A DNA stretch of 64,000 nt from contig PBIO01000014.1 in the NCBI GenBank assembly GCA_002720865.1, positions 1,239,793 to 1,303,792 of the forward strand, written 5' to 3'. Position numbers and translations under genes: made by a program. Origin of the DNA: Halobacteriovorax sp. Lineage in GTDB: Bacteria; Bdellovibrionota; Bacteriovoracia; Bacteriovoracales; Bacteriovoracaceae. The notes beneath the pieces were generated by a model. It saw only the letters and a list, made by a program, of their open reading frames with translations, searched no databases and was not told the DNA's origin. Below, piece after piece: positions 10,882 through 12,269 of this stretch. Position 1 is the first letter of the stretch; each line of letters starts with the position of its first letter.

Positions 10882-11379
10882 ATGATTAAAATACTTAGTG
10901 CCACTTCTGGAAATAATTTAAAACTAGCAAATAACCTCCTTGCCGTATGTAAAGAGCTTGGAGCGGATGCAGAAGTTATTAACTTAGAAGAACTTAATCT
11001 TCCACTTTATACACCTCCTGCTCAAAAGGAAGGAACGCCAGATAAAGTAGCTTGGCTAACGGAACAACTTTCAGGGGCTAAAGGAACGGTCTGGCTAGCG
11101 CCTGAATATAATGGTTCAATTCCACCAGTGGTAACCAATGCTATTGCTTGGGTTTCAACTACAGGGGGAGAAGACTGGAGAGCGGCCTTTAATAATAAGT
11201 ACGCCGTTGTGGGAACACATTCTGGTGGCGGCGGAGCAAAACTCGCTGGGGCCATGAGGCAACAGCTCGAGCATCTTGGAACAACAGTTCTTGCCCGCTC
11301 AATCATTACTAATTACCAAAAAGAGCTTAACCCCGAATCAGCTAACGCTATCCTTAGTCAGTTAATCAAACTCTCATGA
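10882..11379 (+). CDS. NAD(P)H-dependent FMN reductase family protein
   Basis: 165-residue flavodoxin-fold protein. The N-terminal SATSGNNLKLAN matches the FMN phosphate-binding loop, WLAPEYNGSIPPVVTNAIAW is the family signature, and GTHSGGGGAKLAG is the second flavin contact. Such enzymes reduce FMN, quinones or azo dyes with NAD(P)H. It begins three bases after leuS with AGGAT upstream. Its TGA at 11377-11379 forms the left ATGA flank of a 413-bp inserted element; without it the stop would overlap the start of the GNAT gene. Confidence 0.85.
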   Translation: MIKILSATSGNNLKLANNLLAVCKELGADAEVINLEELNLPLYTPPAQKEGTPDKVAWLTEQLSGAKGTVWLAPEYNGSIPPVVTNAIAWVSTTGGEDWRAAFNNKYAVVGTHSGGGGAKLAGAMRQQLEHLGTTVLARSIITNYQKELNPESANAILSQLIKLS

Positions 11380-11415
11380 GGTACGCGTTTCCTTTTCCGG
11401 ATTTTAATTAGTTAT
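11380..11415 (+). repeat. Left terminal inverted repeat
   Basis: Pairs with 11757-11792. The first 21 bases are identical to the reverse complement of the right end; mismatches are at 11401, 11407, 11408 and 11411. The repeat runs into the first two bases of the inner gene's ATG. Confidence 0.85.
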
Positions 11416-11764
11416 GAACAGCTTTCTCTGGTTTATTTATGGTTTGGCGATTTCATTTCTCGTTTTTGGATTGAAAAAAGGCTTAGCCCCCCTCCTTGTA
11501 TTTAGGGGAAACCTTGAGTCTTTATCATTTTTATTCGGATTATTAATTCTCGGTTTCGCTTTTGCAAAAACCTCAGGGCTTTTTTCTAGAAAAGAGAATA
11601 AAGTTTTGTCTGATGATTTTGATGAAGAGTTTCATAATGACTTCTCAAAAGTGGGAAGTGGAACTGATATCAAAGAAGTTAAGCCTGAGGATCATACCCA
11701 AGGAACTTTCGCTCAAGGGCTTCCTTCAGAACATCACAAAGATATTAAAAAACTAGATAAGTAG
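11414..11764 (+). CDS. Two-helix membrane protein carried by the inverted-repeat element
   Basis: 116 residues: two hydrophobic helices (about 3-20 and 36-53) with a short GLKKGL turn, then a hydrophilic, acidic C-terminal tail of about 60 residues that should face the cytoplasm or periplasm. No known family is recognised. The ATG at 11414 lies at the inner edge of the left repeat and the TAG at 11762-11764 lies inside the right repeat, so the gene fills the whole element. No ribosome site is obvious; the nearest purine run is within the left repeat. It could be a passenger or simply the body of a non-autonomous element that happens to be coding. Confidence 0.65.
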   Translation: MNSFLWFIYGLAISFLVFGLKKGLAPLLVFRGNLESLSFLFGLLILGFAFAKTSGLFSRKENKVLSDDFDEEFHNDFSKVGSGTDIKEVKPEDHTQGTFAQGLPSEHHKDIKKLDK

Positions 11765-11792
11765 CTAAAACCCGGAAAAGGAAACGCGTACC
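11757..11792 (-). repeat. Right terminal inverted repeat
   Basis: Reverse-complement match to 11380-11415. It contains the stop codon of the inner gene, abuts the ATG of the GNAT gene at 11793, and supplies that gene's only purine-rich upstream sequence (AAAAGG about ten bases before the start). Confidence 0.85.
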
Positions 11793-12269
11793 ATGATAAT
11801 CATTCGTAAAGCGAAACTTGAAGACAAGGTGGCGACGAATGATGCTCATAAGAGATCGATTAGGGAAGTTTGCTCAAAGGATTATAATGAGGAGCAGATT
11901 AGGATATGGTCCGATGTGACTTACTCTGATGAAATCTGGGAAAATTCTCTTAAAAACGATATTTATTATGTACTAGAAAAAGACTCTGTTATTGAGGGCT
12001 TTATTCATGGGCGAATTCATTCGGATAATACCGGTGAGATTATGGGACTTTATTTTACTCCTGCCATAATGGGACAAGGCTATGGTCGGAAGGCCTTTGA
12101 GCTGGTTATGAAAGAGATCTTAAAGAGTAAACCAACTAAGGTAATCATTTCAGGAACCAAGACAGCTCTTCCGTTTTATAAGGCCATGGGCTTTAAGGTG
12201 GTGGAGGTCAAGCAGAGTAATATTCGCGGCACAGTCATTGAGACTAACGAAATGGAGCTTTGCGTCTAA
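11793..12269 (+). CDS. GNAT family N-acetyltransferase
   Basis: 158-residue GCN5-related acetyltransferase. The acetyl-CoA binding motif is IMGLYFTPAIMGQGYGRKAF (residues about 89-108), followed by ISGTKTALPFYKAMGFK, the usual beta-bulge and tyrosine region. The N-terminal IRKAKLEDKVATNDAHKRSI is typical. The substrate cannot be told. The first four bases, ATGA, duplicate the end of the FMN reductase gene on the other side of the inserted element, so these two genes were probably once coupled. Confidence 0.85.
   Translation: MIIIRKAKLEDKVATNDAHKRSIREVCSKDYNEEQIRIWSDVTYSDEIWENSLKNDIYYVLEKDSVIEGFIHGRIHSDNTGEIMGLYFTPAIMGQGYGRKAFELVMKEILKSKPTKVIISGTKTALPFYKAMGFKVVEVKQSNIRGTVIETNEMELCV

Follow-up and report, generated by a model that had tools for sequence, protein, structure and literature searches.

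Organization of the locus

The window, a 64,000-nucleotide stretch of contig C14 of the 4.9-Mb Halobacteriovorax sp. genome (G000), carries an FMN reductase gene, a gene of 116 codons and a GNAT acetyltransferase gene on the same strand (Table 1). The 116-codon gene is the only gene between two 36-bp inverted repeats, and the ORF list confirms that its start and stop overlap them. Read directly from the sequence, the repeats are identical at 32 of 36 positions and perfect over the outer 21 bp, and the tetranucleotide ATGA is present on both flanks. In profile searches the left repeat matched profile R1 with an E-value of 3.9e-8, and the right repeat gave 2.3e-8. The 116-codon protein apparently possesses two N-terminal hydrophobic helices (judged by eye) and has no family match in Pfam or NCBIfam. 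The AAAGGA within the right repeat plausibly serves GNAT as a repeat-supplied ribosome-binding site.

Table 1. Features of the window locus (plain numbers) and of repeat-related loci elsewhere in G000 (contig, C, or locus, L, labels).
Feature	Position	Strand	Remarks
NADPH-dependent FMN reductase gene (PF03358)	10882..11379	+	TGA stop adjoins left repeat
ATGA 5′ of left repeat	11376..11379		FMN-reductase gene end
Left repeat, type B	11380..11415	+	outer end GGTACGCG at 11380; FMN-reductase stop codon immediately 5′
116-codon operon gene	11414..11764	+	resident; start overlaps left repeat, stop within right repeat
Right repeat, type B	11757..11792	-	outer end at 11792; GNAT start codon immediately next
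AAAGGA in right repeat	11777..11782	+	10 nt upstream of GNAT ATG; candidate ribosome-binding site
GNAT acetyltransferase gene	11793..12269	+	ATG adjoins right repeat
ATGA 3′ of right repeat	11793..11796		GNAT gene start
Type B inverted pair	C11:112751-113796 (= L008 4752-5797)		around esterase gene
Type B inverted pair	C14:735633-735928		around non-coding DNA
Single type B repeat	C31:52180-52215 (= L009 5181-5216)		upstream of transketolase gene
Repeat pair	C19:40170-40930		encloses 210-aa Y1 transposase
RAYT-like transposase gene	C31:389432		ends of window-repeat layout
RAYT-like genes	C9:5730-6200; C14:1113534-1113971		ends of AAAGGTTCCATG type in one, not recognisable in the other
~226-bp repeat, copies	C31:349442-349664; C14:641168-641390; C14:1199721-1199944; C32:2754-2974		
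~226-bp repeat, remnants	L071 2640-2815; L020 4690-4900; contig ends C11:43 and C8:1		

The bracketed gene in related genomes

The 116-codon gene has homologues in both congeners, G001 (assembly 81% complete) and G002. The gene order in G001 is leuS, FMN reductase, a 119-codon homologue and GNAT; a repeat of related type, orthologous to the left window repeat, follows the FMN-reductase stop codon, and no repeat separates the 119-codon homologue from GNAT, the two sharing 8 bp. G002 has leuS, then FMN reductase and then a 117-codon homologue, the last two overlapping by 4 bp with no repeat present there. Orientation of the gene is identical in all three genomes. Between G000 and G001 the 116-codon gene has a 4-fold-site divergence of 0.52, compared to 0.56 for leuS, 0.57 for the FMN reductase and 0.60 for GNAT, and there is no second copy of the gene in G000 among the matches listed. 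As it occupies the same position in the congeners and has diverged like its neighbours, the gene is not a passenger of the repeats but a bystander resident in the operon. Weak homologues of its protein in two other genomes adjoin unrelated genes and carry no information on mobility of the gene.

The two repeats thus have separate histories to account for. The left one predates the split of G000 and G001, or was lost from the line of G002. The right one is absent in G001 and is therefore most simply explained as a later addition at a gene/gene overlap, which would change the C-terminus of the 116-codon protein and the N-terminus of GNAT. It is possible instead that the right repeat was lost in G001; even so, the gene would not be cargo.

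A dispersed family of repeats

The 21-bp core of the two inverted ends in the window occurs at least seven times in G000 at ≤3 mismatches versus zero times for a reversed control, placing its copies far beyond chance. The ends are thus multi-copy inverted repeats of the kind found on mobile elements, in which respect the first-pass annotation was right. The family has a consensus of ~35 bp, approximately GGTAC-RYG-N-TTNCTTTT-S-N3-N-ATTCAG-N-TANTTA, with an invariant GGTAC head in the alignment. A profile built from 18 copies (matches counted at E<1e-3) identified at least 18 matches in G000, at least 6 in G001 and at least 15 in G016, a genome of a different genus in which nearly all copies are single and one adjoins that genome's own transposase gene. 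About half of the family consists of single copies. The repeats fall into sub-families, paired or single, which are lineage-specific. Pairs are spaced by 296-1046 bp and enclose unrelated genes or non-coding DNA, as with the type B pairs on C11 and C14. A second repeat type, GGTACACGCTTCCTTTTGGAG, forms pairs on C19 and C20 of G000, and its first 18 bp are present at five sites in G001; a third, GGTACGTGGTTACTTTTCGCG, was found by profile search.

The esterase enclosed by the C11 pair resembles PHB depolymerases, and neither G001 nor G002 has its gene at the corresponding site; this is the only pair that could hold a real gene passenger. Its right repeat contains the end of the neighbouring aminotransferase gene. 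The single type B repeat on C31 is also absent in both congeners, yet the intergenic length there is about equal; the site therefore looks like a replacement rather than a clean empty site, and it was rejected as an example of clean insertion.

An exact 20-bp pattern found no match in ~85,000 species genomes, a set from which the window genome is possibly excluded. In 129 genomes of the family, the core at ≤3 mismatches stayed near the level of the reversed control outside G000, except in G111, where the match led to a related repeat pair. The repeat family appears to be undescribed; no literature on such repeats in Bdellovibrionota was found, which is not proof of absence. As DNA, the repeats fold no more stably than shuffles. 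Structured RNA was considered and rejected, with one sub-threshold Rfam match lying elsewhere, none at the repeats, and no fold.

G000 also harbours a MITE-like repeat of ~226 bp, whose inverted ends are long and imperfect (AAACTGACCTACT...CCATGGTGATGAA...) and which seems to be flanked by target duplications of 8-10 bp. Copies and remnants together number at least six, all identified in this genome alone, and two of the RAYT-type repeat pairs contain remnants.

Abutment to gene borders

The outer end of the repeat lies -1 to +2 bp from a stop codon in 13 of 46 repeats and 0 to 2 bp from a start codon in four more, making 17 of 46 in total versus an expectation of ~1% each, the latter being derived from random intergenic points in one window with simple ORF calls. 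Six repeats contribute, with their first G, the last letter of a TAG stop codon. Where the outer end meets an ATG, as at GNAT, the coding strand reads AAAGGA 10 nt upstream. This abutment to stop and start codons accounts for the neat ATGA junctions of the window and for the impression of precise insertion that they give.

Linked Y1 transposases

The repeat pair on C19 encloses a gene for a 210-aa Y1 transposase (PF01797, 5.8e-10). Its match to the NCBIfam model of the REP-associated tyrosine transposase (NF047646) has an E-value of 2.2e-18, which is below the model's cut-off, and the nearest solved structure by sequence, the sole one found, is that of TnpA_REP (4er8). G000 has at least four RAYT-like transposase genes, and two repeat sub-families flank RAYT/TnpA_REP-like Y1 (HUH) transposase genes. 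The ends of the C31 transposase gene read GGTACG[G/T]GGTTA[T/C]TTTTCGCG-N-ATTCA, with a 35-bp layout equal to that of the window repeats. The first-pass annotation had proposed looking for an autonomous element with the same ends: ends of the same kind do enclose a transposase on C19, but none of the transposase genes found in G000 has ends that are precisely of type B. Integron- or dif-like sites and a DDE transposon with target-site duplication were dropped as candidates because a Y1 transposase lies inside a pair and the duplication is not reproducible.

In 15 transposase homologues the H-Y-H residues and the tyrosines, corresponding to the HUH motif and predicted catalytic tyrosine, are invariant. 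Of 80 transposase loci surveyed in named records, almost all of them from Bacteriovoracia or Bdellovibrionales, about 70 were testable. Inverted repeats bracket 47 of these ~70 transposase genes in Bdellovibrionota versus 0 of 70 shuffled controls. The ends are mostly headed by GGTAC/GGTGCC, loci of this kind including L195, L205, L227, L235, L243, L247, and L267. Perfectly palindromic ends occur in the survey (G031/L195: CCAAAAGGTACGCGGTACCTTTTGG), as do ends doubled in tandem.

Origin of the inverted ends in the window

The two inverted ends are very probably members of this dispersed repeat family, tied to RAYT/TnpA_REP-like Y1 (HUH) transposases, with the gene that they bracket being a bystander. 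An HUH transposase would act in trans on the short ends, moving them in single-stranded form, and transposition would proceed without target duplication, by analogy with the way in which RAYTs supposedly move REPs. Copies may arise or survive precisely where genes begin or end, since the first G of a repeat is able to complete a TAG and AAAGGA is available on its reverse strand.

This border position could also be taken to mean that selection keeps the repeats there as sites of regulation or mRNA processing, with the transposase link being secondary. Such selection would suit the candidate ribosome-binding site before the ATG, and also the persistence of repeats at orthologous sites despite near-saturated synonymous sites. 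However, transposase genes of many genomes have such repeats on their flanks, the sub-families are lineage-specific, the congeners lack both the right window copy and the unpaired copy on C31, and folding of the ends is not seen, all of which make this explanation very unlikely.

More doubtful still is the history favoured by the first-pass annotation, in which a 413-bp segment moved with its gene into the FMN-reductase/GNAT junction as a unit, in the manner of a coding MITE or of a mobile insertion cassette. The inverted ends and the ATGA on both flanks prompted this interpretation, and the C11 esterase gene, bracketed by the same ends and missing there in G001 and G002, is in keeping with it. 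Against it, the gene is found in the same operon of both congeners, with no repeats in G002 and one in G001; synteny, neighbour-like 4-fold divergence and the lack of a second copy among the matches listed show that gene and ends are not one moving unit, and a fused FMN-reductase/GNAT junction representing the empty site was seen in no relative examined. A direct repeat at the outer ends is seen in the window pair only, and since the other inverted pairs have none, the two window ATGAs are most likely just the end of one gene and the start of another, and not a target duplication. The features first observed at the locus were therefore correct, while the unit and the history deduced from them were wrong.

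Least probable is an invertible segment, flipped by a site-specific recombinase at its inverted repeats: the perfect 21-bp core around one gene and the further pairs in G000 would suit it, but about half of the family and nearly all copies in G016 are single, pairs enclose unrelated or non-coding DNA, the gene has one orientation across three species, and the enzyme linked to the repeats is no invertase but a Y1 transposase.

Apparent replacement of repeat type in place

In the inner part of the left window site, G000 and G001 are identical at 14 of 15 positions, a value exceeding that of all 52 non-orthologous comparisons (12 at most). In its outer part, the two agree at only 16 of 21 positions, whereas G000 matches four of its other copies at 21 of 21. 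The two ends at 735 kb of C14, orthologous by position in G001, display this outer change as well, their inner agreement being weaker (11/15 and 12/15). These alignments suggest that the left site retains an ancestral inner part while its outer ~21 bp were overwritten by lineage-specific sequence, as was probably the case at two more sites. Synonymous sites between G000 and G001 are near saturation, and the uniformity of the outer parts within G000 is therefore probably recent.

The switch could be due to gene conversion, to transposition into existing repeats, or to selection favouring a changed specificity of the enzyme; that REPs undergo gene conversion was proposed long ago, to judge by the title of a 1988 review. 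A more speculative reading, which we consider rather unlikely, is that the transposase, besides copying repeats elsewhere, rewrites the outer ~21 bp of repeats older than the split and leaves their inner tails intact, so that families switch in concert, and that the repeats also serve as portable border pieces with a stop codon on one strand and, on the opposite one, a ribosome site. The type switch at orthologous sites offers a clean case for the question of whether repeat uniformity stems from transposition, gene conversion, or enzyme co-evolution.

Comparison with known systems

The locus calls for caution in general, as a resident gene with a repeat inserted independently on either side can pass for a one-gene transposon, even to the point of an apparent target duplication. 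Like MITEs and mobile insertion cassettes, the window pair has inverted ends around a transposase-free segment, but it differs from these in that the enclosed gene is resident, the ends are of different arrival time and there is no consistent target duplication.

Classical REPs carry a GT[A/G]G head and fold (PMC2817692), and also sit by ORF ends, often supplying a TAG stop (PMC2817692, PMC3116915, PMC8266576). The repeats described here resemble REPs and REPINs in being short and dispersed, in occurring singly and as inverted doublets, in having a linked RAYT-like transposase, and in their location at ORF ends with TAG stops supplied. However, repeats of the window type have no GT[A/G]G head and no stable hairpin; GGTAC is their head throughout, with TAGG arising at some junctions only, although a palindrome is present in some relatives such as G031. 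They also differ in their length of ~35 bp with a conserved inner tail, their low copy number here and a pair spacing that exceeds that typical of REP doublets.

TIRtrons or TIRYTs are tyrosine transposases with terminal inverted repeats that form moderately abundant families (PMC3733652), most TIRYTs being placed in TnpA_Y1 subclass 2.1 (PMC6006769). Judged by sequence, the system of G000 likewise combines a Y1 transposase gene, with HUH motif and tyrosine, bracketed by inverted repeats without the GTAG palindrome, and ends that form dispersed families, single or paired. Because the ends neither fold nor carry a GTAG head, the repeats fit this TIRtron/TIRYT variant of the REP–RAYT system and not classical REPs. 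The system of G000 differs from the TIRtrons described in its head (GGTAC/GGTGCC in place of the GGGGWSAS motif of PMC3733652), in its host phylum, Bdellovibrionota, which is not named in the text of PMC3733652 under the names searched, and in the presence of several end types per genome with pairs that bracket resident genes.

What is new is thus a lineage-specific variant of a known partnership between transposase and repeat, with a hint of concerted rewriting. The range of REP–RAYT systems, which are most familiar from gamma-proteobacteria, is hereby extended to the predatory Bdellovibrionota, where they have another head (GGTAC/GGTGCC) and several sub-families of transposases and ends in each genome.
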